Origin: Synechococcus sp. NOUM97013
GTDB taxonomy: Bacteria; Cyanobacteriota; Cyanobacteriia; PCC-6307; Cyanobiaceae
Length of the DNA stretch: 64,000 nt
Reading direction: 5' to 3'
NCBI RefSeq assembly: GCF_014279815.1
Contig: NZ_CP047941.1
Coordinates: forward strand, 2,418,001-2,482,000
In this document: positions 11,417 through 34,743 of the stretch, piece after piece
Position numbering within the stretch: position 1 is the first letter of the stretch
Layout of the letters: each line of letters starts with the position of its first letter
The notes under the pieces: model-generated
The model's input: the letters and a program-made list of their open reading frames with translations, nothing else
Database searches by the model: none
Told to the model about the DNA's origin: nothing
Program-made: the position numbers and the translations under genes

Positions 11417-11488
11417 TGGGCGATACTGGGATCGAACCAGTGACAATCTCCTTGTAAGGGAGGTGCTCTACCGCTGAGCTAATCGCCC
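11417..11488 (-). tRNA. tRNA-Val (anticodon UAC)
   Basis: On the minus strand the sequence folds as a full cloverleaf: 7-bp acceptor GGGCGAT/ATCGCCC, D-arm GCTC/GAGC, anticodon loop CTTACAA giving UAC, and T-arm ACTGG/CCAGT with loop TTCGATC. The discriminator base is A and CCA is not encoded. The outermost anticodon-stem pair (27-43) is a C-A mismatch. It is the only tRNA in the window. Confidence 0.95.
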
Positions 11489-16574: not shown

Positions 16575-17074
16575 GGACTGAGGAACCGGCACACGAACAG
16601 CAACAGGACATTCCCATTGTTGCCAACGCGTCAACGTTCTGACGTCATCTCAACACTTGCTCGTGGTACTACAAAACCCGCACTGGCGTGTCCTGAGAAT
16701 GAGCGGCCTCGACGGAGGCTCCAAGATCCAACTGGCGATCACCGCTGATCAAGGCCTGATCAACGGAAACCAGAGGGGGAAGCACCGGAGCGCGGGCCGT
16801 CCAGTGATGGCAAAACAGAATGCGGGCCAACTCTGGGTGCACATGCAAACGCCGTAGACGACACCAACCACCAGACGAGCCTGAACCGGCGGCAACGCAA
16901 TGAAGGCAGGACTGGCAGGTGGTCTGAGACAGAAGCAAGAACTGAAGTGAAGCTCAAGCTAAGGACGCTTGCCAAAGCGGGCGACATTCATGGCGCAATC
17001 TGCGGCTTTGCTTCCACTTCCGACGAAAAACGGAGGTGCGTTCATAGGATCACGATCAAGGCAGCAAATGCACC
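16575..17074. other. Intergenic region upstream of gcvT
   Basis: About 500 bases between the CNB gene and gcvT. Base composition drops toward the right end as gcvT begins. The only candidate gene is the minus-strand frame at 16669-16938. I found no riboswitch-like conserved core before gcvT and no terminator that I trust. Confidence 0.45.
16669..16938 (-). CDS. Possible small protein with Cys/His motifs
   Basis: An 89-residue frame opening with TTG, reading HPELARILFCHHWTARAPVLPPLV in its centre and containing four Cys near the N terminus (CQSCLHC, WCRLRR). Codon use looks like chromosomal genes rather than random sequence, and it is co-directional with the CNB gene downstream. No family recognised, and the TTG start without a clear Shine-Dalgarno keeps this tentative. 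Confidence 0.35.
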   Translation of the reverse strand: MLLSQTTCQSCLHCVAAGSGSSGGWCRLRRLHVHPELARILFCHHWTARAPVLPPLVSVDQALISGDRQLDLGASVEAAHSQDTPVRVL

Positions 17075-18178
17075 ATGGGCAATCTCAAAACACCTCTCCA
17101 TAGCCGCTGCCTAGAAGCCAACGCAAAGATGGTTGATTTCGCTGGGTGGGACATGCCACTGCAGTTTGATGGAGTTCTGCAAGAACACAAATCAGTACGC
17201 GAACGCTGTGGGCTATTTGATATTTCGCACATGGGCATTTTAAGCCTTAGCGGAAGGCAAGCAAAAGAAGCACTCCAAGGATTGGTTCCCACTGACCTCT
17301 TCCGAATCGGGAAAGGACAAGCCTGTTACTCAGTTTTAACCAATGAACATGGCGGAATCATTGATGACTTGATTGTCTACGACAATGGATGGAACGAAGA
17401 CATCGATAAAGAAGAAATGTTTATTGTCATCAATGCCGCAAGAGCCGAAAAAGATGCTGAATGGATCAAGAATGGCGTCAAAGCCTTTGAAATAAACATC
17501 ACCGATAAAAAGGGAGATGGTGTTCTACTGGCACTTCAAGGGCCGGAAGCAGAAGACAGATTGAAAGAAATAACCGAATTAGATCTACATGAAATGCCCC
17601 CATTTGGGCATCGCACATTCGATACGCGAGATTTTGGGGAAGTGATGATAAGCAGGACTGGTTACACAGGTGAAGACGGGTTTGAATTGCTTTTCAATAC
17701 GGAAGCTGGTGGGCTTTTTTGGGATCAATGCTGCGAACGTGGAATACAGCTTTGCGGCTTGGGTGCACGCGACACTCTCAGACTTGAGGCGGCAATGCAT
17801 CTCTATGGAAACGATATGACAGAGGAAACAACACCAATTGAAGTTGGCCTGGGGTGGCTAGTCCATCTAGAAATTCCAAGAGATTTTATCGGACGTAAAC
17901 AGCTCGAGCAGCAAGCCCAAAACAACACCAACCGAAAACTAAGATGCATCAAAATGGAAGAGAAAGCAATACCCCGCAAGGGATACAAAGTTCAAGATGC
18001 AAACGGCAAAGTTGTCGGAACGATTACCAGTGGAGGGTGGTCCCCAACATTAGAAGCAGGAATAGGACTCGCACTAGTCAATCTCAGCAGCAGCAAACTA
18101 GGCACGCAACTTAGTGTAGAGATCCGAGGCAACAAAAATGCTTGCAAGATAGTAAAGAGACCATTCATACAAAAGTAA
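17075..18178 (+). CDS. gcvT: Glycine cleavage system T protein (aminomethyltransferase)
   Basis: 367 residues. It transfers the methylene from aminomethyl-lipoyl H protein to tetrahydrofolate, releasing ammonia. Characteristic stretches are VDFAGWDMPLQFDG (N-terminal), FDISHMGILSLSG, SRTGYTGEDGFELL near residue 193 and the C-terminal GTITSGGWSPTLEAGIGLA. The gene lies next to the island and is markedly more AT-rich than speE-speB upstream, with codon choices like the island. It is otherwise intact. In picocyanobacteria I expect gcvT to be followed by aspS, here 14.6 kb away. Confidence 0.92.
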   Translation: MGNLKTPLHSRCLEANAKMVDFAGWDMPLQFDGVLQEHKSVRERCGLFDISHMGILSLSGRQAKEALQGLVPTDLFRIGKGQACYSVLTNEHGGIIDDLIVYDNGWNEDIDKEEMFIVINAARAEKDAEWIKNGVKAFEINITDKKGDGVLLALQGPEAEDRLKEITELDLHEMPPFGHRTFDTRDFGEVMISRTGYTGEDGFELLFNTEAGGLFWDQCCERGIQLCGLGARDTLRLEAAMHLYGNDMTEETTPIEVGLGWLVHLEIPRDFIGRKQLEQQAQNNTNRKLRCIKMEEKAIPRKGYKVQDANGKVVGTITSGGWSPTLEAGIGLALVNLSSSKLGTQLSVEIRGNKNACKIVKRPFIQK

Positions 18179-18208
18179 GGCAGCAAACAAACTCCTATCA
18201 ACGAATGG

Positions 18209-20332
18209 TTATGGACCGTTCCATTTCCAAACCATGACAGTCAAATCGTCAAATTGTTCTTCATCGCCCTTGAAGTCGTCTACGTCACTGAGAATAGAAT
18301 TCATTAAATCTGAAGGACTGAAATCAGCACTCTTCATCAATAGCTTCAGAAGCCTCTCGAGGCCCCAACCCTCGTTGGAAGGACCACGAGCATCCACAAG
18401 ACCATCGCTATAAATCACTAATGAATCACGTGGCTGCAACTGTAAAGACGATAAAGAGTATTGAGCACCATCAAACAATCCAATGGCTGGACCACCAGTC
18501 GCATCTAACTTGGATAAGCCAGAAGAACCAATCAAAAGAGGTGGTTCATGACCGGCACCAATATAAGAAACATAGCCCGTCGTCGTATTGATCGCAGAGA
18601 TAAATACGGTGGCAAACATCATTGAGGAATTCTGATTCGAAGCCATATAGCTATTAGTTTGCTCAATCGCCAGACGAATGCACTCGGAAGCGATTTGATC
18701 AGCTTGAGCGTGGCAAACACCATGCATAGATTCACCTTCATTAAGACGAACCGAGAGGTCTAACAATTTGGAACGAATCAAGCTCCGAAAAACTGACATA
18801 TACAATGCAGATGGGACGCCTTTATCGCAAACATCAGCAACAACAAGAAAAACATGCTGACCCGCTTGAACCATGTCGTACCAATCCGCGCCGATGGTCA
18901 ACGCAGGACGTGAGAAAGCTTCAACCTGGTAGTGAGATGATTTGGGGAGATCAGTCAATAGGAAGTCAGCCTGGATAGCCTTGGCGGTATCCAACTGCGT
19001 TTCGGTGACGGCAAAAGAGGTTGCTTGAGCCAGAAAAACTTTGAGCCGATTAGCTGCACTTTGAATATCGCGAAAGAGGCCACCCATCTCGTCATTGGCA
19101 GTAATCGGAAGCTCAACATCAAAATCACCGTCACTAATGCGATGCAATGCTTGGCCAGCTAATGAAATAGGAGAGGTGATAGCACAGGCCCTAGATCTAA
19201 CAATCAAAAACGCAAGCAGAATACTCGTAAGGCCAATTGACAAGAGAATAATCCCCAAATTGCGCATGGCAGTCAAGTAACGATTCTCATTAAGGAGAAG
19301 AACGATTGACCAAGCTGAATCAACTTGAGAAGTGAGGACAAGATATCGGTCGTCTTCAATACCGATCGATTGAAATACATCCTTCCCTCTCATTGCGGTT
19401 GCAATGACGGGATAAAGGCTTGCATATTTAGAGGATTTAATGTCTTCAATATCAGGAATTGACAGTGGCTGAGACCTATCTCCTGGAAAAAGAAGTTGAC
19501 CTGTAGTATTGCTAACTAAGATCAAAGCACTTTCAACTCCATCGGGATCATTTAGAAAATCATTCTGTTGTGATTCGCCGGATAAAAGTGCAAGACGTTG
19601 ATCTGTAAATAATTCATAGAGTCCAGTGTCTGCGGCAAGCTTTTCAAGTGGAATGCACATCACAAGGATGCCAGAAAGATCATTCCGAACAGGAACCGAC
19701 ATCACAGCTGTTTGATCGATAAGATCTTGAACAGGTGCGACTACATTTATATCTTTCTGTAGAGTGCCTTTCTTAAAAACCGGCTGAGCAATATTTAAAC
19801 ACCCCTGATCAGTCGTGCGAGACATCACGCTCTGATAAGTCGGATAGCCTCGTAATGCAGCCTGAAAATAAAAACGATTCAACTGATTGGCTTCAGATGC
19901 AAGCTTTTGTGGAGGACTAATCGTGCCGGTATAGGCAAGAAGTTGAGGCGCCAATGAGCTTGCGGTCCAAAAACGCCAAAGCCGCCCTGGTTCTGAAACA
20001 TTCAGACGATCAAAGCTAGCTTGAATATCTTCGGCACGTGCTTGACGAAGTGCGGGAGCCTGAGACAAATAGTTTAAAGAAAAAGAAACTCCAGTTCCCC
20101 ATTCTTTAAGGCCATAAGATATCAGCTCAGCTTCAGCCTGCAGGCGTCTCTGACCAGCTTTATAAATTCGAGCAAGGACAAGCTGATGAACAAGTACAAA
20201 GCCAATTCCCAACGTAGGCACTAATGCAACAGCAATACCTACTGTCAGTTGATCTCGAATTGAGGAAACATGCAGCCGTGAGAAGAGGCTATCTAGAAAA
20301 CGATGACGTTCTTTTGGTTGCAGCTTAGTCAT
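18209..20332 (-). CDS. RsbU/SpoIIE-type PP2C phosphatase with HAMP and extracytoplasmic sensor
   Basis: 707 residues. A transmembrane helix near residues 27-52, about 300 residues outside the membrane, a second helix near 355-378, a HAMP domain (RISDGDFDVELPITANDEMG) and a C-terminal PP2C domain from about 450. Metal-binding Asp motifs are all present: GADWYDM, VADVCDKG, IYSDGLVDA and FDDLTVMV. The family dephosphorylates STAS antagonist proteins. The external region would sense a periplasmic ligand. It is convergent with gcvT and upstream of nothing on its strand, but follows the GH13_2 gene by 86 bases, so the two may be co-transcribed. It is distinct from the second phosphatase at 28787. 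Confidence 0.9.
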   Translation of the reverse strand: MTKLQPKERHRFLDSLFSRLHVSSIRDQLTVGIAVALVPTLGIGFVLVHQLVLARIYKAGQRRLQAEAELISYGLKEWGTGVSFSLNYLSQAPALRQARAEDIQASFDRLNVSEPGRLWRFWTASSLAPQLLAYTGTISPPQKLASEANQLNRFYFQAALRGYPTYQSVMSRTTDQGCLNIAQPVFKKGTLQKDINVVAPVQDLIDQTAVMSVPVRNDLSGILVMCIPLEKLAADTGLYELFTDQRLALLSGESQQNDFLNDPDGVESALILVSNTTGQLLFPGDRSQPLSIPDIEDIKSSKYASLYPVIATAMRGKDVFQSIGIEDDRYLVLTSQVDSAWSIVLLLNENRYLTAMRNLGIILLSIGLTSILLAFLIVRSRACAITSPISLAGQALHRISDGDFDVELPITANDEMGGLFRDIQSAANRLKVFLAQATSFAVTETQLDTAKAIQADFLLTDLPKSSHYQVEAFSRPALTIGADWYDMVQAGQHVFLVVADVCDKGVPSALYMSVFRSLIRSKLLDLSVRLNEGESMHGVCHAQADQIASECIRLAIEQTNSYMASNQNSSMMFATVFISAINTTTGYVSYIGAGHEPPLLIGSSGLSKLDATGGPAIGLFDGAQYSLSSLQLQPRDSLVIYSDGLVDARGPSNEGWGLERLLKLLMKSADFSPSDLMNSILSDVDDFKGDEEQFDDLTVMVWKWNGP

Positions 20333-20418
20333 CCCAAAAGTGTAAGATCAGAACAAAAGTCATGCAACACTCTCGTATCAATGTCGCAGCTTGAAAACAA
20401 GAAGATTGACACCATGCA

Positions 20419-22272
20419 TTAACGAAAAGACCAAAGAGCGTCAACTTTTTGTCGTCCGGACGATCCCAGCAAAAAGCGCCTAGGGAGGATAGCTTCATAA
20501 GCAGGATCAACCGAATCACCAATCAATACAAACTTGAATTGGATTTGCTGGCCAACACTGGCGTTAAAGGCGACTTCACAAATCCAAGTGTTCTGATTGA
20601 CATATTCCATTCCATAGCCGCAATCAAGATCCCAGATTCCAAGTTCAGGACAATCACCTAACAAAATCACAGACTGGCCAGGTAACGTCTCCAATCCATT
20701 GAGCTGAAAGGTCACCACGAGAGTACCGTCGACACGTTGCCCCGCGGAACTGAAAAGATAGGCACCAGCGCTTGGGACGTTGAGATGGATTTTTCCATCC
20801 ACAGCAAAGAGTTGCTCATTCGTTAAAATACAAGACAATTGCTTGGAACGAAGAGGGCCAGGCAAATCCAAGACAATATTAGTCTGCGGGCCTTTATTCA
20901 ATACACATAAAGCAAATGAGTCACGATAAGAACGAAGAAATGCGTAAATATTCTCAGATAAATACAACTGGCGATGTGACCCAAAAGTAAGAGCTTGATT
21001 GCTTCTTCGTGTAGAGATTAATTTCTGAATCAGAGAAAAGCCTGAACTTGTAATGTCCCACGATTCCATCATAGGTCTGTTATATGGATCACCCCCGCCA
21101 TCTGTTTGATTGACAAGATATTGCTCTGTACCATAAAAAATACAGGGAACTCCGCGAAGACAGAAGAGCAATATCAAAGCTTGTTCTAATGAGCGCTCAT
21201 CATCACAGACAGACAAAAATCGAGGCATATCATGGTTATCAATAAACGTCACAAGCTCGTTCGCTCTGTGATAGACATGGTCATACGTCAACAAAGTTTC
21301 TATTAACTGGAAACCACCTGGCTCTTGACCAGAAAAAGCAAATCGAATCGCATCACATAAGCCAAAATCAAGAATTGACATTCCTGATTGATTGGCATAA
21401 TCCACAGTTCTCTGCTCCCAAGGCTTTCCGAAACCATATTCGCCGAACAAAAACAACTCTGGCTTGTAAGCCTTCATATCAGCTGTAAATTCCTGCCAAA
21501 ACCAGATAGGCATGTGCTTGATAGTATCAATACGCAATGCGTCAACGCCCAAATCAAGCCATTCAATAATTGCAGATTTAATATATTTCCTGTATTCCGG
21601 GTTGCGCTCATTAAAGGTGGCAAGTCCGCACATCTCGCCATTGATCAATTGATACTCATCCTCCCAATCGGTAATCTCAGCGTTATGGTGATAAAATCCA
21701 CTAACGTCATTATTAAAATCGCACAAAAGATTACCATCATCAAACACAATACCCTTGGATCCGTTCACATCAGGTGAGCTGTGGTTACAAACGACATCAA
21801 GAACAAGCTTAATGTCATTGGCATGAAGAGCATCAACAAGTTGACATAATGTAGAGGAATTATGAAGACTATTAGGCTCATCAGTAGGCAAGAATCTAGG
21901 ATTAATTCGCTTGAAGTCTTTTGTCCAATAACCATGCATTGGTGCACGGTCAAATTGCATATCGTCAACCTGCTCAAACAGAGGTGAAAGCCAGACTGCT
22001 GTAATTCCAAGCTGTTTAAGATATGGAATTTTTTCGATAATTCCCTTAAGATTTCCACCCCAATATTTTCCCCATTGCGTCCAAGTCTTGTCATATAAGC
22101 CCTGTTTTGAACCTCGGTCCCAGACTCCTTGTCTCTCCTCTTCATCGCTGGTAGCGTCATAAAAGCGATCGACGATAAGAAAGTAGATCACCTCCTCTCG
22201 AAATTCACGCTCAGTGATGAACAGACCACGCGTGGTCTGATCAAGCCCAGATGTTGAAAATTGAAGATTCAT
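20419..22272 (-). CDS. GH13 subfamily 2-like alpha-glucanotransferase/amylase with CBM20
   Basis: 617 residues. Four GH13 regions are intact: DVVCNHSS, ALRIDTIKH (nucleophile Asp249), FLFGEYG (acid/base Glu278) and FIDNHDMPRF (Asp348). The pattern is closest to cyclodextrin glucanotransferases and maltogenic amylases. The last ~100 residues are a CBM20 starch-binding domain (PGQSVILLGDCPELGIWD, QIQFKFVLIG). Unlike secreted CGTases there is no signal peptide; the start MNLQFSTSG is plainly cytosolic. So it probably remodels internal glycogen or maltodextrins. Substrate and product (cyclodextrin versus linear) cannot be read from sequence. Confidence 0.85.
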   Translation of the reverse strand: MNLQFSTSGLDQTTRGLFITEREFREEVIYFLIVDRFYDATSDEEERQGVWDRGSKQGLYDKTWTQWGKYWGGNLKGIIEKIPYLKQLGITAVWLSPLFEQVDDMQFDRAPMHGYWTKDFKRINPRFLPTDEPNSLHNSSTLCQLVDALHANDIKLVLDVVCNHSSPDVNGSKGIVFDDGNLLCDFNNDVSGFYHHNAEITDWEDEYQLINGEMCGLATFNERNPEYRKYIKSAIIEWLDLGVDALRIDTIKHMPIWFWQEFTADMKAYKPELFLFGEYGFGKPWEQRTVDYANQSGMSILDFGLCDAIRFAFSGQEPGGFQLIETLLTYDHVYHRANELVTFIDNHDMPRFLSVCDDERSLEQALILLFCLRGVPCIFYGTEQYLVNQTDGGGDPYNRPMMESWDITSSGFSLIQKLISTRRSNQALTFGSHRQLYLSENIYAFLRSYRDSFALCVLNKGPQTNIVLDLPGPLRSKQLSCILTNEQLFAVDGKIHLNVPSAGAYLFSSAGQRVDGTLVVTFQLNGLETLPGQSVILLGDCPELGIWDLDCGYGMEYVNQNTWICEVAFNASVGQQIQFKFVLIGDSVDPAYEAILPRRFLLGSSGRQKVDALWSFR

Positions 22273-22714
22273 TGTTCAAAGCAAATGGGTGAAAAGATAG
22301 AGAAGGCGCGGGAATGCTCTGACAGTTACAATGATTCAAAACAAATCAAGCTGTCAAATTAAGAGGATAAAGACATCACATGTAAAGAAGACATCGTAAA
22401 GAGTCGCGTGGAACTACCAAGAATAGACGAGTTGCACAAGTAGCACATTAAAAATCACCTGGCAAACGTGAGAGTACGCTTAAAGACAATTGTATTCTCG
22501 CAATCATGGCAATTACCGAAGCGTTAGACACAAGCAAGAGGTAGAGGCAAGGCTCCTCTACTTATTTTTAGATTTGAACGAATAAAAAAGAAAACTGTAT
22601 CAACGTCAACACAAAGAGACCATGCCAGAAGTGTCTATTAATTTTTTTTGCAAACAAGTCGCCAGCAGAGTCTATCGCTAATGTTGAATTGGCTTGGTCA
22701 TTTGGAGCATTAAA
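22273..22714. other. Divergent promoter region of the island
   Basis: About 440 AT-rich bases between the GH13_2 gene (minus) and the DJ-1 gene (plus). It contains a 12-codon frame (MAITEALDTSKR, ATG 22506) whose stop lies in the stem of a terminator-like hairpin at 22541-22561. Otherwise I see no gene. Promoters for both operon halves must lie here. Confidence 0.5.
22541..22570 (+). terminator. Orphan terminator-like hairpin
   Basis: Inverted repeat GTAGAGG (22541-22547) and CCTCTAC (22555-22561), loop of seven bases, followed by TTATTTTTA. This has the form of an intrinsic terminator on the plus strand, but no annotated plus-strand gene precedes it; a short RNA or peptide upstream would be the candidate. 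Confidence 0.5.
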
Positions 22715-23296
22715 TTGACCCACAAAGTTCTAGTGCTAATTGAAGAGCATTATGACGAAACTGAGTTTAATGTCTTCAATGACTTCTTCCCAAGCAATGG
22801 CATCGAAGTTGAATATGCTTCGTACCTATGGGGAAATGATTCATTAACGTTTGAAGGGAACGACAAAACGAGCAAAGTCGAGGTTACGCAATGCGTTAGC
22901 AAGACCAATTTAAGTAACTACAAAGGTCTGATTCTCATTGGTGGATATGCCATGGATCGACTGCGCTACGAAGAAAAGTGCAAAGCAGTCAATCAAGCAC
23001 CTGCTGTTGTTCTGCTACGCAAAGCAGTTGAGATGATGGATCAAGGATCAATAGCAATTGGGACCATCTGCCATTCGCTTTGGCTATTTTGTGCAGATCC
23101 GAGACTAATTAAAGGAAGAGAAGTGACATGCGCACATAATATTGTCTGCGATGTCGAAAACGCCGGTGGAAAAATAATTAATACGTCTGGGACCAATGTT
23201 GAGTTACATCAACAAGGATTATTGATTACAGGAAAACATCCAGGCTGCGTTGATGTTTTCGTAAAAGCTTTTAAGGATGCTATTGAAGCGATCTGA
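22715..23296 (+). CDS. DJ-1/PfpI family protein
   Basis: 193 residues with TTG start at 22715, supported by GGAG seven bases upstream (22704-22707); TTG 22694 would add seven residues. A glutamine-amidotransferase-like flavodoxin fold is seen: KVLVLIEEHYDETEF at the start, GLILIGGYAMDRLRY, and the nucleophile-elbow Cys in AIGTICHSLWLF near residue 117. DJ-1/PfpI members act as proteases, deglycases or chaperones. Here it is the first gene of the plus-strand operon and 40 bases before the AGE gene, a position also filled by a PfpI-like gene in the Synechocystis icfG cluster, as I recall. Its role in the switch is unknown. Confidence 0.8.
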   Translation: MTHKVLVLIEEHYDETEFNVFNDFFPSNGIEVEYASYLWGNDSLTFEGNDKTSKVEVTQCVSKTNLSNYKGLILIGGYAMDRLRYEEKCKAVNQAPAVVLLRKAVEMMDQGSIAIGTICHSLWLFCADPRLIKGREVTCAHNIVCDVENAGGKIINTSGTNVELHQQGLLITGKHPGCVDVFVKAFKDAIEAI

Positions 23297-23336
23297 TTTT
23301 CGACGAGAAGTCTAAAGCCACATTCACTCTCAAACA

Positions 23337-25166
23337 ATGAACGACCTTTCCTTCACTTTCTCTGATCTGATCTCTGGGTACGTCACCTCGTACAACGAGA
23401 ATGAAAAACTCATCGGAATTAAAACTTCAGATGGAAGAGAATTTGAGGCAAAGCTCACAGGTAATTCGTACGCGAAATTAAGCCAAAACTTAGGTGAAAG
23501 CTGGCCTGATCGATCAGGTCAACTAGACAAGCTCTTAGTTCCAGGGCAAATGATCTTTGTCTATGGAACTTTCTTCCCAGAAGACAAAGTCAAATTTGAA
23601 GTGAATTACATCATCTTTGCAGGTGATGCAAGGGATGAGTATCGCTATGCCGATGAGCAAGGCTGGTGGATCAAACAAATCGATCAAATCGCATCATCCT
23701 ATTGTGAGTGGCAATTCAATGCTCCAGAACAGGATATTGATTACAATAACTATCGAACAATCATTAACCTGACAGGGGGGAAAGAAGAAGAGGACTATCT
23801 CCAGGAAACAGACACAATTTCCAGGATGGTTTACGGCATGGCATGCGCATATATGTTGACTGGAAAAGATTTATATTTAGATGCAGCTGAAAAAGGAACC
23901 GAATATTTACGAGACAAGATGCGCTTCACGGACACTGATACAGGTTTAATCTACTGGTATCACGGTCAGAAAGTCAGCAGTGGCGGTGAAGAGCAAAAGT
24001 TATTAGTTTCAGAATTCGGTGATGACTATGACTGCATTCCGGCTTACGAACAAATCTATGCTTTAGCTGGTCCAGTTCAAACCTATCGAATCACTGGAGA
24101 TCCACAAATTCTCCGAGATGCTGAAAAAACCGTTGATTTGTTCGACGAATGTTTTAAAGACAAAGAAAAAGGTGGATATTACTCGCATATTCATGCTGTA
24201 ACACTCAGTGCGCACGATAAAAGCTTAGGCCGCAATCAGGCGAAAAAGAACTGGAACTCCGTTGGTGACCATGCGCCCGCGTATCTCATCAATTTATGGC
24301 TGGCGACTGGCGAAGAGCGATACAAGACGATGCTCGAGGATACATTCGATACGATTACGAGTCATTTCCCAGACTACGACGAAAGTCCCTTTGTCCAGGA
24401 AAAATTCTTCGACGATTGGAGCAAAGACCAAACATGGGGATGGCAACAGAATCGCGCGGTTGTTGGGCACAACCTCAAAATAGCCTGGAATTTAATGAGG
24501 TTTTATGCCGAAATGGGCAAAGACAAGTATGTTGAGATCGCACAAAAAATAGCGTCTTTAATGCCTAAGGTGGGTTACGACGCTCAAAGGTTTGGATGGT
24601 ACGACGTTGTTGAAAGAGTACTTGGAGAAAACGAAAAGTATCACCGTTATGCATGGCATGATCGCAAAGCATGGTGGCAACAAGAGCAAGGAATTCTTGC
24701 TTACTTAATACTGCAAGGACATATGCCAGAGAATCAAGATTATAAAAAGTATGCGGAAGAGTCCGCAGCTTTCTATAACGCTTTTTTCTTAGACAATAAC
24801 GATGGGGGCGTCTACTTTAATGTACTTGCGAACGGTGTTCCGTACTTAGTTGGAACAGAAAGGTATAAAGGGAGTCATTCGATGAGTGCTTATCACTCAA
24901 CTGAACTGTGTTTCCTTTCAACAGTCTATATCGATCTAATGATCAAAAAACGACCACTTGATCTTTACTTCAAGCCAATGCCTAATGGCTTCAAAGACAG
25001 ATTACTAAGGGTAGAACCGGACATCCTTCCTAAAGGTTCTCTGTATATCGGTAAATGCGAAATTGATGGACAAGAACATACAGATTATGATTCACAGTCA
25101 ATGACGATTAAGCTTCCCGAGGCCGATCATCGACTAAAAGTCAAAGTCACAATCAGCACAAAGTGA
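23337..25166 (+). CDS. AGE-family (N-acylglucosamine 2-epimerase-like) sugar epimerase/isomerase
   Basis: 609 residues. Roughly the first 95 form a beta-rich extra domain; residues ~100-510 form the alpha/alpha toroid of the AGE superfamily, with NWNSVGDHAPAYL (His ~312), the conserved AVVGHNLKIAWNL (His ~378) and HDRKAWWQQEQG (~441-452). A C-terminal beta domain follows. Family members interconvert aldose/ketose or C2 epimers (mannose, cellobiose, GlcNAc). It is larger than the usual 400-residue enzymes and its substrate is unknown. The Synechocystis icfG cluster carries a gene annotated as this type beside the STAS gene. It is in the operon with both STAS genes and glgX. Confidence 0.8.
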   Translation: MNDLSFTFSDLISGYVTSYNENEKLIGIKTSDGREFEAKLTGNSYAKLSQNLGESWPDRSGQLDKLLVPGQMIFVYGTFFPEDKVKFEVNYIIFAGDARDEYRYADEQGWWIKQIDQIASSYCEWQFNAPEQDIDYNNYRTIINLTGGKEEEDYLQETDTISRMVYGMACAYMLTGKDLYLDAAEKGTEYLRDKMRFTDTDTGLIYWYHGQKVSSGGEEQKLLVSEFGDDYDCIPAYEQIYALAGPVQTYRITGDPQILRDAEKTVDLFDECFKDKEKGGYYSHIHAVTLSAHDKSLGRNQAKKNWNSVGDHAPAYLINLWLATGEERYKTMLEDTFDTITSHFPDYDESPFVQEKFFDDWSKDQTWGWQQNRAVVGHNLKIAWNLMRFYAEMGKDKYVEIAQKIASLMPKVGYDAQRFGWYDVVERVLGENEKYHRYAWHDRKAWWQQEQGILAYLILQGHMPENQDYKKYAEESAAFYNAFFLDNNDGGVYFNVLANGVPYLVGTERYKGSHSMSAYHSTELCFLSTVYIDLMIKKRPLDLYFKPMPNGFKDRLLRVEPDILPKGSLYIGKCEIDGQEHTDYDSQSMTIKLPEADHRLKVKVTISTK

Positions 25167-25179
25167 GGAGGATCTAATC

Positions 25180-25506
25180 ATGGATATTCAAACTGAAACG
25201 TTTAAAAACTGGCAAGTGATCAAGGTTAGTGGGCAAATTGACTCAAAAACAGTGGTCAAACTTAGAGATTTCATCGATTCAGAGCTTAAGACTAACCAAC
25301 CCGTTGCTCTAGAACTCACAGACGTGCCATTCATGTCGAGTGCTGGCTTACGTACACTCTTAACTCTTCAACGAAAAACAAAAGAGCTTAATCTCGATCT
25401 GGCTCTGATCGGCCTAGGAGAGGGGATTGCTGACACGATGAAAGTGACTGGTTTTTATCAGTTTTTCACCGTCTACGAGTCACTTGAGGCAATTCCTGGA
25501 GCCTAA
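25180..25506 (+). CDS. STAS-domain anti-sigma-factor antagonist (RsbV-like), first copy
   Basis: 108 residues covering one STAS domain. The phosphorylation site is in VPFMSSAGLRTLL, with Ser53/Ser54 at the usual position. The start has a strong Shine-Dalgarno (GAGGAGGATC) 14 bases after the AGE stop. When dephosphorylated, such proteins bind the RsbW kinase and release its partner. It equals the Slr1856 position of the icfG cluster by order (epimerase, STAS, glgX). Confidence 0.92.
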   Translation: MDIQTETFKNWQVIKVSGQIDSKTVVKLRDFIDSELKTNQPVALELTDVPFMSSAGLRTLLTLQRKTKELNLDLALIGLGEGIADTMKVTGFYQFFTVYESLEAIPGA

Positions 25507-25511
25507 GAGAG

Positions 25512-27620
25512 ATGAATCACGAAAGAATTGACAATCTACCGACTGATACGCTTCAAGGTTTTCGGACCAGGCCAGGAAAACCTTTGCCCTTCGGTGTTTC
25601 TCACGTTCCAGGTGGCCTAAATTTCTCAATCTATACTTCTGCAGGAACGGCCTGTACATTGGTACTTTTCAGTCGAGAAAGCAACACATGTCTGACTGAA
25701 ATCAAAATCCCCGATCACTATCGAATTGGTGATGTTTACTCGATTATTATCTATGATCTTGACGATGAAGATATTGAATATGGCTTCAGAATAGATGGCC
25801 CCAATGCACCACAAGATGGCTATAGGTTTGATCCAGAAAAAATCTTAATGGATCCATATGCAAAAGTCATTTCAGGAAGAGATCGGTGGGGAGAAGAGCC
25901 CCATTGGGACAATCCATACCAGTATCGATCGCGTATTGCATTTGATGACTTTGACTGGGAGAGTGATCATCCGCTTGAAATAAATGATGCTGATCTTATA
26001 ATTTATGAGCTTCACGTACGATCATTTACCAAAAGTGAATCTTCCAAGAATAAATTTAGAGGTACCTATGCAGGTATTGTAGAAAAAATCCCCTATCTCA
26101 AATCACTGGGCATTAACGCTGTTGAATTAATGCCAATTTTCGAATTTGACGAATTTGAAAATTCGAGAATTCATCCAGATACCGGAGAACGGCTGTACAA
26201 CTACTGGGGCTATAGCACGGTTGGATTCTTTGCTCCCAAAGCCGGACTCGCAGAGTCAGGACGTTTTGGTATGCAAGTTGATGAATTCAAGCAGTTAGTG
26301 AAAAAGCTCCATCAAGCGGGTATTGAGGTCATTCTTGATGTTGTTTTTAATCACACGGCCGAGGGGAACGAGCGAGGTCCGACAATCTCTTTCAAAGGGT
26401 TAGACAACAAAATATACTACATGCTAACGCCAGAAGGATATTATTTTAATTTTAGCGGAACAGGTAATACTCTTAACTGCAACAACCCAGTCGTAAGAAA
26501 TTTAGTTCTTGATTGCCTAAGATATTGGACATCTGAATACCATATCGACGGATTCAGGTTTGACTTGGCAAGTATATTAGGACGCGATCCGTGGGGTGCA
26601 CCCCTCAGTAATCCACCGCTACTAGAATCGCTCGCCTTTGACCCAATTTTATCGTCGTGCAAATTAATTGCAGAAGCCTGGGATGCTGGTGGCTTATATC
26701 AGGTCGGTACATTTCCTGCATTTGGACGATGGTCTGAGTGGAATGGAAAATATAGAGACACCCTAAGACGCTATTTAAAAGGTGATGACGGCCAACTGGG
26801 TGAAATGGCTCAAAGAGTTCAAGGATCCCCTGATCTCTATCAATGGAACGGTCGGTCACCGGCGACATCGATTAATTTCATTACCTGCCACGATGGATTT
26901 ACTTTGGCAGACTTAGTTTCCTTTAATGGAAAGCATAATGAAGCAAATGGAGAAAATAATCAAGATGGTGGGAATGACAATTACAGCTGGAATTGTGGCG
27001 CTGAAGGTTGGACAGATGACAGCAATATCCTCTCACTGCGAAGCAAACAATGCATGAATGCTCTCAGCATGCTGATGACAAGTAGAGGAACACCCATGTT
27101 ACTCATGGGGGATGAATTTGGAAGATCACAACAAGGAAATAACAACGCTTACTGCATTGATTCACCACTCACATGGGTTGACTGGAATTTATTAGAAAGC
27201 AATCACTTGCTTTTTGAATTCACACAAAAACTAATTCGCTTCAGGCATGTGCATCCATGCTTGCGCATCAACGACTTTACCCATCATGGAAGTAAATACT
27301 TTCCAAGCTGTAGCTTCCATGGCACATCGCCTTGGCAGGTCAATTGGTCTGATGATTCAAAACAACTTGCATGGCTTATGAGCTGCGACAAATCAGAAAA
27401 TGATGACACTGACACTGTTTATGTTGCCACAAACACCGCTCACTATGCGACATGGTTTGATTTACCCTCATTACCCAATGGCTATGAATGGCATTTAAAT
27501 TTCAATACTGGGGACAGCAAAACTCCCATGATTAATAAGTCCTCGCCATTCAGAGATCAAGGCATCCTAGTCGGTGAAAGATCCGTCGTTATTTTTTCTG
27601 CGTCTCGATCCGAGACGTAA
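25512..27620 (+). CDS. glgX: Glycogen debranching enzyme GlgX (isoamylase type, GH13_11)
   Basis: 702 residues. It hydrolyses alpha-1,6 branch points of limit-dextrin-like glycogen. An N-terminal CBM48-like beta domain (PFGVSHVPGGLNFSIY) precedes the barrel. Catalytic residues lie in IDGFRFDLAS (nucleophile Asp351), LIAEAWDAGG (acid/base Glu388) and ITCHDGFTLADLV (Asp461). The sequence starts five bases after the first STAS gene and is 40 bases upstream of the second, so it is embedded in the partner-switch operon. This is a second, non-core glgX-type gene in character (AT-rich); a core glgX may exist elsewhere. Confidence 0.93.
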   Translation: MNHERIDNLPTDTLQGFRTRPGKPLPFGVSHVPGGLNFSIYTSAGTACTLVLFSRESNTCLTEIKIPDHYRIGDVYSIIIYDLDDEDIEYGFRIDGPNAPQDGYRFDPEKILMDPYAKVISGRDRWGEEPHWDNPYQYRSRIAFDDFDWESDHPLEINDADLIIYELHVRSFTKSESSKNKFRGTYAGIVEKIPYLKSLGINAVELMPIFEFDEFENSRIHPDTGERLYNYWGYSTVGFFAPKAGLAESGRFGMQVDEFKQLVKKLHQAGIEVILDVVFNHTAEGNERGPTISFKGLDNKIYYMLTPEGYYFNFSGTGNTLNCNNPVVRNLVLDCLRYWTSEYHIDGFRFDLASILGRDPWGAPLSNPPLLESLAFDPILSSCKLIAEAWDAGGLYQVGTFPAFGRWSEWNGKYRDTLRRYLKGDDGQLGEMAQRVQGSPDLYQWNGRSPATSINFITCHDGFTLADLVSFNGKHNEANGENNQDGGNDNYSWNCGAEGWTDDSNILSLRSKQCMNALSMLMTSRGTPMLLMGDEFGRSQQGNNNAYCIDSPLTWVDWNLLESNHLLFEFTQKLIRFRHVHPCLRINDFTHHGSKYFPSCSFHGTSPWQVNWSDDSKQLAWLMSCDKSENDDTDTVYVATNTAHYATWFDLPSLPNGYEWHLNFNTGDSKTPMINKSSPFRDQGILVGERSVVIFSASRSET

Positions 27621-27659
27621 TCTCAAAAAAACCATCAAGCAATTTCAGGATTTTCAACC

Positions 27660-27986
27660 ATGACACTTGCAATTAATGTCACCAAAGCTGAGAATTACGT
27701 GACCATGACTCTGAGTGGTGAAGTTGATACAAAAACAGCCCCAGATCTTTTACAAGAGCTGACCGCACTTGATTTACATACTCTTAGTCAATTACGTCTG
27801 GAGCTTGCAGAGGTTGGCTTCATGAGTAGCGCAGGACTCAGAGCTCTTGTTTTTGCAAAACAAAAAATGCCTCATAGCTCAAGTCTGTATGTCATCGGAG
27901 CTTCAACAGTAATTCGAGACACCATCACAAAAACCGGACTGGCTCAAGCAGTTGTCATGGTGGGCGCAGAGGGTGAAATTAAATGA
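27660..27986 (+). CDS. STAS-domain anti-sigma-factor antagonist (RsbV-like), second copy
   Basis: 108 residues with a single STAS domain and the same phosphorylation motif, VGFMSSAGLRALV (Ser56/Ser57). It differs clearly from the first copy in the rest of its sequence, so it is not a recent duplicate. TGA at 27984-27986 is one base from the kinase ATG, so the kinase and this antagonist are tightly coupled. Two antagonists feeding one kinase is the layout of the icfG cluster. Confidence 0.92.
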   Translation: MTLAINVTKAENYVTMTLSGEVDTKTAPDLLQELTALDLHTLSQLRLELAEVGFMSSAGLRALVFAKQKMPHSSSLYVIGASTVIRDTITKTGLAQAVVMVGAEGEIK

Positions 27987-27987
27987 T

Positions 27988-28449
27988 ATGGATAACACGA
28001 TAAACAAACAAAAGCCAGAGAAATATGAAGCACCAGCATCAATGGAATTTTGGGATAATTTTACTGATTTCGCAACTGATCAGATCAAGCATTCTCCACT
28101 CGATGAATCACGTGCCTACAAATTGAGGCTGGCATATGAGGAATTAATTTCTAACATTATTCGATATGCAAATAATGCAACTGATCAGGAAGGTGACTTC
28201 GCCAGGCTAGAAGTGTCTTTGAGTATCAAAACCATTGACTCTAAGCCATGGCTGATCTTACAGACCAAAGACAATGGTGTTCAATTCAATCCAAACTTTT
28301 ACAATCGATCACCAATTGATACCGAGCAGCCAGTAGCCGAACGACAGATTGGCGGGCTCGGAATTTTTCTGATTGAGCAATCAGTGGACAAGGCCACATA
28401 CGAGTGGAGAGACAACAAAAACGTATATCAACTAAAAATGAGTTGCTGA
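27988..28449 (+). CDS. RsbW/SpoIIAB-like serine kinase (anti-sigma factor)
   Basis: 153 residues from ATG 27988; the earlier in-frame TTG is inside the STAS gene. It is a GHKL ATPase: N-box EELISNIIRYANN near residue 51, G1 box DNGVQFNP at 95-97 and G2 box GGLGIFLIEQSVD at 122-125. Such kinases phosphorylate STAS antagonists and otherwise sequester a partner, usually a sigma factor. No sigma gene is in the island; the Synechocystis homologue Slr1861 works on the two STAS proteins of its cluster. Confidence 0.9.
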   Translation: MDNTINKQKPEKYEAPASMEFWDNFTDFATDQIKHSPLDESRAYKLRLAYEELISNIIRYANNATDQEGDFARLEVSLSIKTIDSKPWLILQTKDNGVQFNPNFYNRSPIDTEQPVAERQIGGLGIFLIEQSVDKATYEWRDNKNVYQLKMSC

Positions 28450-28786
28450 ACAACTTAAAATAATCGATTTAAATTGATTGCTTGACAATGCCAACAAATT
28501 AGTCGTTAAAGCCAGCCAGTCAGTCAGCAATAGCAAAGGTCATATTTTAATTTTTTGAAAGTACGCAATCAATGGTTAGCCATAATGAGTTGCAGGATTA
28601 CACTTGGAGCCAGCATTATTTAATTCTCTGAGGATGCAAAAATTAAAGCCCGAAAATTCATAAAAGACTAATTAATTCATTATTGGTGATTTAAAAACGT
28701 CCATGTCAGCAAATTAATATTTCAGGGGGAAATCAAACAAGCTTGTTCAGGCATTTATTCCTAAGCTGTAGATAAAGACACGGGAA
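28450..28786. other. AT-rich gap upstream of the second phosphatase gene
   Basis: 337 bases with no ORF that I trust. A TTGACA hexamer at 28482-28487 is followed 17 bases later only by a poor -10 match (GTTAAA), so any promoter call is weak. The gap suggests the second phosphatase has its own promoter rather than simple read-through from the kinase gene. Confidence 0.35.
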
Positions 28787-30871
28787 ATGCTCTTTAACAC
28801 CACCCCGTCCGTGCGCCAAAAGTATTGGCTCGTCGTTGTGGCGGGCTGTCTAGGTGCTTTCGCCAATCTGCACCCATACGAGCTGTACGTCAATACGAGT
28901 TTGACGCTTGGGATGAGTATCGGACTTTTTATCCTCTTCGTCGCCAGAGGCTGGTGGGGATTCGCGGTGGCAATCCCTGCAGGTTTAATGAATATAGATT
29001 TTCTAGGACGTTATTACTCATTCATTATCTACATGATTGAGATATTAGTTCTAACACTATGCATCAATAGTCGCCATGGAAATCGCTTACTAGAAAAAGG
29101 TCATATTATTATTATTGGTTTTCTATTTTGGCTGGCAATAGGAGCCCCTTTACATTATCTGTCTCACTACTTTCTGGTTGGACTAACCCACAATGAAGCC
29201 TTTACACTGGCAGAAAAAGCACTGTTGAATGGTGTCGTCAATATATTGATTGCATTCATTGCTTATTCAGCTATTTCCTTATTTAAAAATCAACGGAAAT
29301 CCAAAAGAGCGCAAGTCTCTATTCAGGCCTTAACACTTTCAACCGTTTACAGCCTGATTGTGTTTATTTCATTATTCACAGCTTCTGCACTCTTTAATAA
29401 TGTCAATACAATGCAGGCTAAAAATCTTTCAATATTCTTTCGCGACCAAGCTGCATACATTTTCGACACATTGAGCCTAAGCAGCTCACAAGAGGAGCAA
29501 GAAAAAATTATTCAGTATATGGAGTCGCAAAATGTATTTTTCCGTTGGGAGAATTTAAATTCTCCAGGTCAAGTCGTAACGACAAACAATCAAGATATCG
29601 ATTCAATTATGGAATCTTATAAGCCTTCATCGGTTCGCACACCACTCTCGAGGCTTGCTGCTGAACTAGCAGAGCCACCGAACAAAATTAGGTTGTTGAT
29701 GCCTCCAAGTGATGACAAAGCACGGCTACTTAAAAAAATTGAGATGAGCTATTGGAAAGTAAGACTCTACAACGAAAATGAAGCTGTCACAATCATTCAG
29801 CGCGCTCTACCGAGTTTTAATGCTCTCATTAGTTTTTACCGCAGCATGCTAAATATATTGATCATCAGCCTTGTGATCGGAATCGTTATTAGTGTTGTTA
29901 TATCAATCACAATACAAAGAGAATTCGTTTCTGTCCTAAAACCAAAAAGCAAGCATGCAAGCGCTAGCATCAAAAAGGAAAGAGCTGCTAATGATGAGGA
30001 TATTTATCTACAACTTTCACCCATATGTGAAGTTAGTGAACTTGCGAGCAAAGTCAACGAGAGAACAGCAGTCATTGAGGCTAGTAAGGAGCAAATCGAG
30101 GAGCTCAACAATATTGCACAACAGCAATTGAGTACAGCTGGTGAAATCCAGCAATGCTTTCTTGGAGTTCGTGACGAATGTGCTGAAGAACCTGATGTCA
30201 GTCTCTTTATGCGCCCTGCATACAATGCAGGTGGAGATTGGTACGATATATTTGAGGTTAACAGTAAGACCTATATTGTTGTCGCAGATGTTTGTGATAA
30301 AGGAGTGGGTGCAGCACTCTTTATGTCTGTGTTTCGAAGCCTCATTCGATATTCTGCAGAGTCACTCTGCATTCAAAATCCCGAAACGACAGAGCCACTG
30401 GATCAAGTCATAGAGAGCGTCAATAATTATATGAGCACGAAACATGCTGCTACTACTATGTTTGCCACTGTATTTTTAGCCTGTATCAATAGGGATCTCA
30501 AACAACTTGATTACGTACTAGCAGGCCATGAACCACCTATCCTCCTGAGCTCGAAAGGAGACAGCTACGAATTTGAATATTCTGGGCCAGCGATTGGTTT
30601 ATTTCCAGACACAGATTATTCAATTGGAACCACTAAATATGATACTGGTTCAATACTAGTGGGCTACTCCGACGGAGTTGTCGATGCTCGGAACACCGAG
30701 GATATTTCTTACGGACACGAAAGGTTGATGCAGCTAATTTTAAAACTCAAAAAAAGTGACTCGAATCTAAAAGCCAAAACAATCACTGATACTCTTGTCC
30801 ATGAACTTGATGAGCATATTGGTGAAGCAGCTCAATTTGATGACATAACTGCTGTGGCAGCTATCCTGTAA
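28787..30871 (+). CDS. icfG: IcfG-like PP2C phosphatase with N-terminal membrane sensor
   Basis: 694 residues. The first ~200 are a multi-helix membrane domain (LVVVAGCLGAFANLHPYELY and several further helices, MASE1-like in appearance), then a likely external segment, another helix near 365-385 (LNILIISLVIGIVISVV), a coiled-coil linker (NERTAVIEASKEQIEELN) and the PP2C/SpoIIE domain to the end. Metal motifs: GDWYDIF, VADVCDKGVG, YSDGVVDA and FDDITAV. By order after the STAS-kinase pair it matches IcfG (Slr1860), though the exact membrane architecture is my reading. The symbol is used for cluster position, not proven orthology. Two phosphatases with different sensor regions would give two inputs to the same switch. 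Confidence 0.85.
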   Translation: MLFNTTPSVRQKYWLVVVAGCLGAFANLHPYELYVNTSLTLGMSIGLFILFVARGWWGFAVAIPAGLMNIDFLGRYYSFIIYMIEILVLTLCINSRHGNRLLEKGHIIIIGFLFWLAIGAPLHYLSHYFLVGLTHNEAFTLAEKALLNGVVNILIAFIAYSAISLFKNQRKSKRAQVSIQALTLSTVYSLIVFISLFTASALFNNVNTMQAKNLSIFFRDQAAYIFDTLSLSSSQEEQEKIIQYMESQNVFFRWENLNSPGQVVTTNNQDIDSIMESYKPSSVRTPLSRLAAELAEPPNKIRLLMPPSDDKARLLKKIEMSYWKVRLYNENEAVTIIQRALPSFNALISFYRSMLNILIISLVIGIVISVVISITIQREFVSVLKPKSKHASASIKKERAANDEDIYLQLSPICEVSELASKVNERTAVIEASKEQIEELNNIAQQQLSTAGEIQQCFLGVRDECAEEPDVSLFMRPAYNAGGDWYDIFEVNSKTYIVVADVCDKGVGAALFMSVFRSLIRYSAESLCIQNPETTEPLDQVIESVNNYMSTKHAATTMFATVFLACINRDLKQLDYVLAGHEPPILLSSKGDSYEFEYSGPAIGLFPDTDYSIGTTKYDTGSILVGYSDGVVDARNTEDISYGHERLMQLILKLKKSDSNLKAKTITDTLVHELDEHIGEAAQFDDITAVAAIL

Positions 30872-31002
30872 TTATATTAATCAAGTGTGCTTTGATTGAA
30901 GACAGTATTTAGAAGGAAAGTTAGCTTCAAACATATCAGTTCTCACCCATTAGAAGCCAGTCTCAAACAACTTTCATTGCCAATAGAAAGCCAAGGTACG
31001 CG

Positions 31003-32556
31003 CTAGAAAAACAACCAAACCTGAAATCCTGCAACAAATGCAGGTGAGGCATCAGGATCTCCACCACGATTCATAATTAATTGGACATTAGGCATCAGTT
31101 TGATACTTTGGTTCAGGTTAAAACTATAGTTAACTTCAGTAGACCATTCAGTACCGGGTTGATATGTATCTGGATCCAAACCAGGCAAAAAATAATCACT
31201 ATTAAAGGAGGCATAGCTCGTTCCAACACTGAATGTGTCGAAAGGTCTTTGAGGGAACAAACCCTCAATCACAAGACCCGCTTGTCCACCTGAGAGAAAA
31301 TCTTGGACATTGGGATTCAATCCCACACCGCCACTCAAGAAAACACGATGATCCAAACCCAAAGAGAACCCTGGAATCTTCAAGCTAAGAATTCCATAGG
31401 CACCATTATTTTGAGATTCGGCAGACCCTAGATCAGCCACAGCCTGATAAGATCCTGACCCAAACCAACCACCAAGAGTCATCGTCCCGGCCGGCAAGTT
31501 GGACTGATAAATTGCATTCGCTTGATCGCGAGAGGAGACCTTTAAAGCGCGGGTTTGCTGATTGAGTTGAACAGGAATTTGTGCATCTATAACGATTGGG
31601 ACACGCAATTCCGCAAAGTGAGCAACTCCATTTCCTTGGTTGAACCGAAAATCCATACCATGATATTTAGGAGCAAATGTGTTCGGAGCAATCTGATAAA
31701 TTCCATATCTTAAGTTCGCTTTGTTTGAATCGCCAAACGCAACAACTGCACCGTAGCTATTGAAAGGATTGCCAGGTATGTCAATCATCGAGGGGACCCC
31801 TTCTGCCCAACCACAAAGACCAAAACTAGAAAAATAACATTGGATGGGATTAACAGTAAAATCTTGAGCTTGCATCAATTTTCCTAATTTGACCATAGAG
31901 ATGAGCTCACCTTCCGCTTGATATTCCAAATTCAAATAATTGAGCCGTGCGATCGGGCCATTGCCAAAATTCCACTGTGTGTTGAGCTGATTCGGAATCG
32001 ATGACGAAAGGATCTGACCTGCACGCTGCGTAAAAAGAGCGTTGATAGCAATCTTCGATTCAAAAGGTTGATGATCGTGCTGTTCATGCACACTCGATTT
32101 TTGCTGCTGAGGAGAAAGATTGCTTACCGCCTTCAGAGGCATCAAACGAAAACCTAAATTAATCAGATTTGACGACGTTGGCTGAACCGGAGGAGAGGAA
32201 AACGACGCGTTATTTTGGCTCAGTATCGACGCATTAAGTTCAAACCAATCCGGTGTCGACAAAGCTCGGTTTAAATTCCATCCCTCTTTCAATGAAATAA
32301 TCGGAAGCACTTGGCTCGATTGCCGATCTTTAAGACGTTCAGATTTGTTTTCTTGATCCGTTGTTAGATCCGCCTCAATCTCACCGCGATGCTCCCGACC
32401 AGAGTGACCTTGCTGATCGCTATAAAAAGCATTCTCAGCACGAGAATTCTGTGCTGCTGAAACAGTTCCCGCCACACCCAAGGCAAAAAGCCAAGCCAAC
32501 AATCGACCTCGAGGGATGCAGGCGAGCTTGGAATCATTCAGGCCAAGAAAAAACAA
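31003..32556 (-). CDS. OprB-type carbohydrate-selective porin
   Basis: 517 residues. An N-terminal signal (RGRLLAWLFALGVAGTVSA-AQ) and a C-terminal Phe with alternating aromatic strands (FVAGFQVWLFF) mark an outer-membrane barrel. The OprB signature region is clear: NPIQCYFSSFGLCGWAEGV followed by IPGNPFNSYGAVV. OprB channels favour sugars such as glucose. It lacks the SLH domain found in common cyanobacterial porins, pointing to the proteobacterial-style OprB group. Convergent with the phosphatase gene, it is the only island gene that reaches the outside of the cell. Confidence 0.85.
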   Translation of the reverse strand: MFFLGLNDSKLACIPRGRLLAWLFALGVAGTVSAAQNSRAENAFYSDQQGHSGREHRGEIEADLTTDQENKSERLKDRQSSQVLPIISLKEGWNLNRALSTPDWFELNASILSQNNASFSSPPVQPTSSNLINLGFRLMPLKAVSNLSPQQQKSSVHEQHDHQPFESKIAINALFTQRAGQILSSSIPNQLNTQWNFGNGPIARLNYLNLEYQAEGELISMVKLGKLMQAQDFTVNPIQCYFSSFGLCGWAEGVPSMIDIPGNPFNSYGAVVAFGDSNKANLRYGIYQIAPNTFAPKYHGMDFRFNQGNGVAHFAELRVPIVIDAQIPVQLNQQTRALKVSSRDQANAIYQSNLPAGTMTLGGWFGSGSYQAVADLGSAESQNNGAYGILSLKIPGFSLGLDHRVFLSGGVGLNPNVQDFLSGGQAGLVIEGLFPQRPFDTFSVGTSYASFNSDYFLPGLDPDTYQPGTEWSTEVNYSFNLNQSIKLMPNVQLIMNRGGDPDASPAFVAGFQVWLFF

Positions 32557-32822
32557 ATCATTCTCCGATGATTCGGATTAATTTTAGACCGTTTATTGAT
32601 GAAAAGGACGACTAAATCAAGCAAGTTCAAATTCTCTACTGGCAACACTTTTGAGGCGTCCAGGGCTATTGAGACGCGGTCATGTCACGTTCAGCTTCAA
32701 GGGATGCCCCAATAGGAAAGTGCCGCTCAGCGATGAGCCACCCAGCTGCTCAGCAACCAGCCCACTCCATCAAGCAGCCAGCAAGGTGGGACAATCGCCA
32801 ACTAACTTCACCTGTTTTCACC

Positions 32823-34658: not shown

Positions 34659-34706
34659 AACCCGAACAGAAACCGGCGTTTCCGAGCACTGAGCCTCGGA
34701 TGGATC

Positions 34707-34743
34707 AACCCTGGAAGAGCAGTCAGCCTTCCAGGGTTTTTTT
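34707..34743 (+). terminator. Intrinsic terminator after aspS
   Basis: 11-bp perfect stem AACCCTGGAAG / CTTCCAGGGTT (34707-34717 with 34728-34738), 10-base loop, then T's to 34743. It lies inside the first 15 codons of the extended sigma-factor frame (ATG 34700), which argues that the sigma gene starts after it. Confidence 0.85.

Follow-up and report, generated by a model that had tools for sequence, protein, structure and literature searches.

The locus described here raises the question of what a bacterial partner switch acts upon when its genes enclose a glycogen debranching enzyme, and of how such a switch came to lie in the core genome of a picocyanobacterium. The stretch that was analysed (the window) comprises 64,000 nucleotides of Synechococcus sp. 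NOUM97013 (NZ_CP047941.1, positions 2,418,001 to 2,482,000). It contains an AT-rich block directly before aspS which encodes a gcvT, two sensor phosphatases, a GH13 enzyme, a DJ-1 family protein, an AGE-superfamily protein, an OprB porin and a cluster of the icfG type, in which glgX lies between two STAS genes and an RsbW-like kinase gene follows. On balance we lean slightly towards the reading that this block was acquired, that it replaced the native gcvT and that it brought with it a complete icfG-type switch which would directly control GlgX. The core of the cluster consists of the following features (window coordinates):

23337..25166, plus strand: AGE-superfamily protein of 609 amino acids with a sugar epimerase/isomerase fold (structure model and fold matches).
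25180..25506, plus strand: STAS anti-sigma-antagonist-type protein 1 (STAS1), containing SSAGLR (family matches).
25512..27620, plus strand: GlgX glycogen debranching enzyme (TIGR02100, 695.5 bits, cut-off 640.9).
25524..25547, plus strand: N-terminal tag of GlgX, residues 5-12 (N-terminus read from DNA).
27660..27986, plus strand: STAS protein 2 (STAS2), containing SSAGLR (family matches).
27988..28449, plus strand: RsbW/SpoIIAB-like serine kinase (HATPase_c_2; Pfam, scanned from an upstream TTG at 27952).

This core is not confined to cyanobacteria and recurs in several phyla. The cross-phylum sample consisted of the best 80 of at least 479 stretches encoding an AGE relative in species genomes, which are the nearest relatives and not all AGE proteins. 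It included 32 loci from Cyanobacteriota, 27 from Bacteroidota, eight each from Chloroflexota and Pseudomonadota, two from Thermodesulfobacteriota and one each from Verrucomicrobiota and Nitrospirota, with one locus unassigned. Wherever 2.5 kb or more of downstream sequence was available (74 loci), AGE, STAS and glgX without exception came in this order on one strand; two of these loci have a phosphatase between STAS and glgX, and one has a 3.5-kb gap after AGE. A second STAS gene and the kinase came next in 60 of the 64 loci with at least 5.5 kb downstream. Individual loci hold further signaling proteins: in an Anaerolineae locus (L047:14882-17308) a single protein with kinase, receiver, GAF and PP2C domains follows glgX, and in Dyadobacter (L040:15488-18652) an nSTAND1-WD40 protein, possibly a further switch partner, lies directly after the kinase.

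GlgX proteins encoded beside STAS share a short N-terminal tag, R[IL]D-x2-PT, which was present in all 79 readable loci of this sample from seven phyla; the 80th locus (L049) yielded no glgX match. The variation within the tag was small (RID in 78 and RLD in one; PTH in 72, PTN in six and PTD in one) and the spacing was always two residues. In the GlgX of the window the pattern covers residues 5-11 and thus precedes residue 22, from which the protein matches TIGR02100. As a first comparison of indels could have reflected the ends of local alignments, N-termini were re-read from the DNA, and the pattern was set on these. A strict form (R[IL]D-x2-P[TI]) was used for the 79 loci and a looser one (R[ILV][DN]-x1-4-P[TI]) for two further sets. 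The first of these comprised 53 GlgX-like matches at an E-value of 1e-40 from 22 genomes, in which the tag was found in 22 of 22 STAS-linked proteins and in none of 31 unlinked ones (30 readable, as L340 aligns only from residue 155), unlinked meaning free of STAS matches in the 1.5 kb of sequence fetched to either side. The second set was phylum-wide, with 20 close matches to the GlgX of locus L311 in 292 genomes; all 19 readable ones were STAS-linked and tagged, four of them being already known and one having RVD. The pattern is independent of the 31 unlinked proteins and of 15 of these 19 loci. The tag was likewise absent from all ten switch-less GlgX proteins shown. Neither the cross-phylum cluster nor the GlgX tag was found described in the open-licence literature, as judged by titles and the beginnings of abstracts.

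Direct control of GlgX is favoured because of this association of the tag, the gene order and the finding that 13 of 14 Bacteroidota carriers have just one region-3 sigma factor (extracytoplasmic function (ECF) sigma factors lie outside this count, and genome completeness is unstated). In such a circuit the kinase would phosphorylate the STAS serines, and the membrane phosphatases would strip this phosphate when their own ligands are present. Free STAS protein, or kinase released by it, could then bind GlgX through the RIDxxPT tag and thereby set the rate of glycogen debranching, while the GH13-CBM20 and AGE enzymes would handle the released oligosaccharides. Besides this, the switch may also act through a group 2 sigma factor, as is reported of Slr1861 and SigC in Synechocystis. 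More tentatively, and short of an even chance in our view, RIDxxPT might be the element for direct switch control of debranching in general, with the cassette acting as a general regulator of glycogen use and the sigma control of Synechocystis being a second branch.

The alternative that survives best, which we hold to be a serious possibility without preferring it, is that the switch controls a sigma factor, that GlgX and AGE are genes of the same programme and that the tag is structural or the mark of a clade. Several observations weigh against direct control of GlgX and towards this alternative. In excerpts of PMC12329169, Slr1861 of the icfG operon is reported to control SigC; its phosphorylation of Ssr1600, Slr1856 and Slr1859 is stated in excerpts of PMC12329169 and PMC11619594. 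Nine carriers from phyla other than Bacteroidota have two to six region-3 sigma factors, which leaves room for a sigma output. In the native flank, the gene next after aspS (34700-35872 of the window) encodes a sigma factor comprising regions 1.2, 2, 3 and 4. Furthermore, the linked GlgX proteins make up essentially one clade, of which the tag may be the mark, and a tree uniting all of them in a single clade was not rejected (approximately unbiased (AU) test, p 0.405). None of 200 bootstrap trees has the linked set as one side of a branch. When the tag columns were left out, two trees placed the unlinked and untagged GlgX proteins of L310 and L311, which are 58% identical to that of the window, within the linked clade. 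They were considered as proof that the tag is lost on leaving the switch, which was not upheld, since these forks carry no star and the same AU result applies. Against a sigma output stand the single region-3 sigma factor of the Bacteroidota carriers and the close tracking of STAS neighbours by the tag; moreover, a pure sigma output fails to predict a glgX gene between two STAS genes across phyla. The cluster itself contains no sigma gene. A sigma gene is likewise found beside aspS in G177 and G269, two genomes of the Vulcanococcus group.

The second part of the favoured reading is the acquisition of the block. The features at its left side and its overall extent are:

17030..32820, no strand: whole foreign block, covering gcvT and everything up to the start of aspS (limits of homology to genome G239, and GC contrast).
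17075..18178, plus strand: gcvT, foreign version (GC 0.457; GC at third codon positions (GC3) 0.424).

An earlier note on this DNA had placed an extended icfG-type island of ten genes between gcvT and aspS. All ten are open, intact reading frames at the coordinates given there and their families were confirmed. The icfG-type order stands, with STAS, GlgX, STAS, kinase and PP2C contiguous and DJ-1 and AGE upstream, as do the additions to this core (an extra sensor phosphatase, the GH13-CBM20 enzyme and OprB), which are supported by family matches. The order with DJ-1 and AGE upstream recurs in other cyanobacteria, presumably including the icfG cluster of Synechocystis PCC 6803. The described AT-richness was also seen: GC is 42.4% for 17075-32700 and 61.4% for the remaining window, and the 15 1-kb windows inside the block (0.382-0.462) do not overlap with the 47 outside (0.519-0.664). 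The block is, however, larger than the note had stated, and gcvT, which had been taken for the native left flank, is foreign too by its GC content, its gene tree and the alignment to the island-free G239. In this alignment the left arm of DNA homology ends at about 17028 and the right arm restarts at 32821, the aspS start; a 144-base patch inside gcvT is the sole homology within the block. The extended unit is not restricted to one strain: the whole of it occurs in G141, and Vulcanococcus G177 has the larger part in the same position.

Judged by composition and phylogeny, the native gcvT appears to have been replaced by a foreign copy which is part of the block. In 28 congeners gcvT has a GC of 0.55-0.68. 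The copy in the block is 54-58% identical to those of congeners and 67% to that of G141. In the gcvT tree the copies of G000 (the genome of the window) and G141 group with that of the cluster-bearing G177 (96/74, not starred), and a position within the genus has a log-likelihood lower by 38 and is disfavoured (AU p 0.027). Because the branches are long this tree is moderate evidence, and together with the modest p value this tempers the argument for replacement. The gcvT of G177 also has a lowered GC, 0.556 compared with 0.67-0.69 in four other genomes of that genus.

Comparison of the gcvT-aspS interval, which the earlier note had proposed, was carried out in 31 genomes of the genus. The two genes are contiguous in 27 genomes and the block is present in two, G000 and G141, which are sisters in the aspS tree (100/100); two genomes could not be scored (G301 without a gcvT match, G317 with matches on different contigs). 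G141 carries the whole block in a gene order identical to that of G000. Among 400 genomes of the family, 34 have an AGE relative at an E-value of 1e-50, which in 12 genomes (that of the window included) is 74-100% identical and in 22 genomes 49-52%. All 11 other genomes of the first kind have AGE, STAS, glgX, STAS and kinase as consecutive genes. The cluster adjoins aspS in G177 and G269, and in G177 also gcvT (the contig of G269 stops before). The version in G177 is shorter, without matches to phosphatase B and OprB; it includes phosphatase A (51% identity) and the GH13-CBM20 enzyme (73%). In the remaining eight genomes neither gcvT nor aspS was seen within the 16-20 kb fetched around the cluster. 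Nine fetched loci of the 49-52% kind contain AGE and glgX but gave no match to STAS or kinase at an E-value of 1e-5, so that the enzyme pair also exists without the switch. Switch-less pairs whose GlgX lacks the tag occur in picocyanobacteria (L125-L133) and on a Gemmobacter plasmid (L285).

In a tree of AGE plus GlgX, the clusters of the family form one clade (support 100, starred), in which the window and G141 stand beside G023 (95, starred) and G177 and G269 join next (99, starred). G061 lies outside, although its gcvT stands beside those of the window's genus. The cluster is AT-rich relative to its own flanks in ten of 11 family genomes, G081 being the exception (14 rows, three of them duplicates; in L114 the flank still includes some of the block). 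Outside the family, where 77 of the 80 loci lie and 14 had flanks too short to be used, the GC of the cluster in the 63 loci used was within -0.026 to +0.061 of the flanks. As the AT contrast is thus seen in family clusters and not in these outside loci, we read the cluster as having moved within the family, probably from an AT-rich pool. Taken as a whole, horizontal transfer of the block is well supported by these sequence comparisons.

That the two sister genomes G000 and G141 acquired, or exchanged, the block separately is in our estimation rather unlikely, even if the synonymous divergence (dS) between them gives this idea some substance. Of the nine block genes with at least 110 amino acids, eight were assigned dS values of 1.0-1.83 and gcvT was saturated (median 1.72), whereas 42 flank genes had a median of 0.41 and a maximum of 0.74. 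Compared with 12 control genes with a GC3 under 0.55, block dS was still elevated (p 0.023; in the dS comparisons gcvT, being saturated, was treated as high). However, the short STAS2 gene, with a dS of 0.53, is near the flanks, and dS rises with falling GC3 across 191 control gene pairs, the regression predicting 0.84 at a GC3 of 0.39 (205 pairs in total, nine from the block and five dropped under 60% identity). Another AT-rich stretch common to both genomes has dS values from 0.73 to saturated, and the gene order of the block is identical in the two. Separate acquisition as judged by dS alone, which the GC3 control and STAS2 weaken, is therefore possible at most. The other AT-rich stretch (L269:237-16022, near 640-656 kb of the G000 chromosome) encodes large multicopper-oxidase proteins, a GMC oxidoreductase and an MFS transporter.

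That the block is ancestral at the gcvT-aspS site in one section of the family, with losses in most lineages, is improbable: it would fit with the cluster lying beside aspS in G000, G141, G177 and G269, from two genera, and with an AGE identity between window and G177 (86%) near that of AspS (88%), but 27 congeners would have to have lost the block cleanly at the gcvT-aspS junction and to carry another gcvT, and neither the AGE plus GlgX tree, with G061 outside and G023 and G177 inside, nor the confinement of the AT-rich contrast to this family agrees with it.

Concerning the vehicle of the transfer we favour, no mobility genes were found among the 11 genes scanned with Pfam, no tRNA lies at a block border (the nearest is at 11417) and no repeat pair of at least 20 nt was found at the two borders. 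No AGE relative was present in 50,697 phage records, and none of five pattern matches in viral contigs was confirmed. Among plasmids, 22 records matched, 20 of which are predicted to be non-mobilizable. AGE-STAS-glgX occurs on plasmids of Nostoc, Runella, Deinococcus and Streptomyces, so that Deinococcota and Actinomycetota join the phyla listed above. In Runella and Streptomyces AGE is followed by STAS-glgX-STAS and a kinase-like ATP-binding protein, in Deinococcus by STAS-glgX-STAS and a phosphatase, with no kinase listed, and in Nostoc by STAS-glgX alone; the Gemmobacter plasmid has glgX-AGE without STAS. As all five of these plasmids are predicted non-mobilizable, the cluster is plasmid-borne and its mobility is not supported. 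A MinD/ParA gene follows the cluster on the Streptomyces (L287), Deinococcus (L286) and Nostoc (L283) plasmids, a thiamine-diphosphate enzyme is encoded upstream of the cluster genes on those of Streptomyces, Deinococcus and Gemmobacter, and the Streptomyces plasmid has a maltokinase and a maltose-1-phosphate maltosyltransferase near the cluster.

The remaining genes of the block are:

18209..20332, minus strand: sensor phosphatase A, dCache-HAMP-PP2C of the SpoIIE type (Pfam HAMP and SpoIIE; dCache fold at residues 55-350).
20419..22272, minus strand: GH13 enzyme with a C-terminal CBM20 (family matches).
22694..23296, plus strand: DJ-1/PfpI family protein (Pfam).
28787..30871, plus strand: sensor phosphatase B, SpoIIE-type PP2C with an N-terminal multi-pass membrane part (topology by our reading of the sequence).
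31003..32556, minus strand: OprB-family porin (family match).

The switch proteins retain their conserved residues. SSAGLR is invariant in all 12 aligned STAS proteins, and the kinase residues E52, N56, D95 and GG[LI]G, which we take to be the functional motifs, are retained in eight of eight. The PP2C aspartate blocks DWYD, ADVCDKG, DG and FDD, presumably metal-binding, are retained in four of four and seven of seven aligned proteins. The model of the phosphatase A sensor (predicted local distance difference test (pLDDT) 79.8) matches 6mni with Z 16.7 and a root mean square deviation (rmsd) of 3.0 over 221 residues. As many of the best solved matches of this dCache domain bind amino acids, a sugar ligand is not supported, and neither is a switch that reads external sugar, such as the integration of external sugar entry suggested in the earlier note would imply. 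The N-terminal part of phosphatase B differs from that of phosphatase A in being multi-pass by our topology reading. SpoIIE-type phosphatases number one in 26 of the 31 genus genomes, none in three incomplete ones, four in G000 and three, one fewer, in G141. The core copy of the genus may be HltA, which excerpts of PMC9430166 describe as a single-copy GAF-PP2C protein of most cyanobacteria. Another phosphatase of G000 (L248:9480-12844, chromosome near 757-761 kb), 34% identical to phosphatase B, adjoins a major-royal-jelly-type protein in a separate AT-rich stretch; it may feed the switch of the block.

Among proteins of solved structure, those closest in sequence to the GH13-CBM20 enzyme are cyclodextrin glucanotransferases and an alpha-amylase (1qho). 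The AGE protein has only a weak GH127 match in Pfam, and its fold was assigned from a structure model (pLDDT 84.9) and comparison, with the barrel at residues about 93-540 and extra N- and C-terminal beta parts. It matches 5x32 with Z 27.6 and an rmsd of 2.8 over 369 residues. A GHN stretch that aligns with 8h1k suggests epimerase or isomerase activity.

The conserved tag on switch-linked GlgX offers a simply testable candidate for the target of an icfG-type switch. If it is indeed a control element, this would apply to a STAS-GlgX-STAS-kinase cassette on the chromosomes of several phyla and on plasmids. The block would further represent a whole carbon-storage control circuit that entered a picocyanobacterium and took the core gene gcvT along.

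Among known systems, the AGE protein shares its fold at residues about 93-540 with the D-mannose isomerase 5x32, the cellobiose 2-epimerase 3wkf and the glucose 2-epimerase 8h1l, and its GHN stretch with the glucose 2-epimerase 8h1k, but identity in the alignments is 16-20% and the N- and C-terminal beta parts are additional. Partner switches with an enzyme as output are represented by SiaABCD and HsbRAD of Pseudomonas, where the output is a diguanylate cyclase; both block phosphatases show a weak NCBIfam match to SiaA, far under the cut-off. With the SpoIIAB/RsbW, SpoIIAA/RsbV and RsbU/SpoIIE systems of Bacillus the block has in common a kinase, STAS proteins with conserved serines and a SpoIIE-type PP2C. 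In contrast to these, its cluster lacks a sigma gene, and a debranching enzyme is encoded between the STAS genes. The closest likeness is to the icfG cluster of Synechocystis PCC 6803 (slr1856, slr1857, slr1859, icfG/slr1860, slr1861), which according to excerpts of PMC12329169 comprises two STAS-type antagonists, an isoamylase, an RsbW-like kinase and a PP2C. Excerpts of PMC12329169 and PMC11619594 state that IcfG dephosphorylates Slr1856 and not Slr1859, and that mutants in icfG and slr1859 show phenotypes related to carbon and glucose; the targets of both STAS proteins are marked as unknown in a figure legend of the former, a paper from 2025. Compared with this cluster, the block of Synechococcus sp. 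NOUM97013 has two PP2C sensors and the additional GH13-CBM20 enzyme and OprB, and it lies between a foreign gcvT and aspS, far AT-richer than its flanks.

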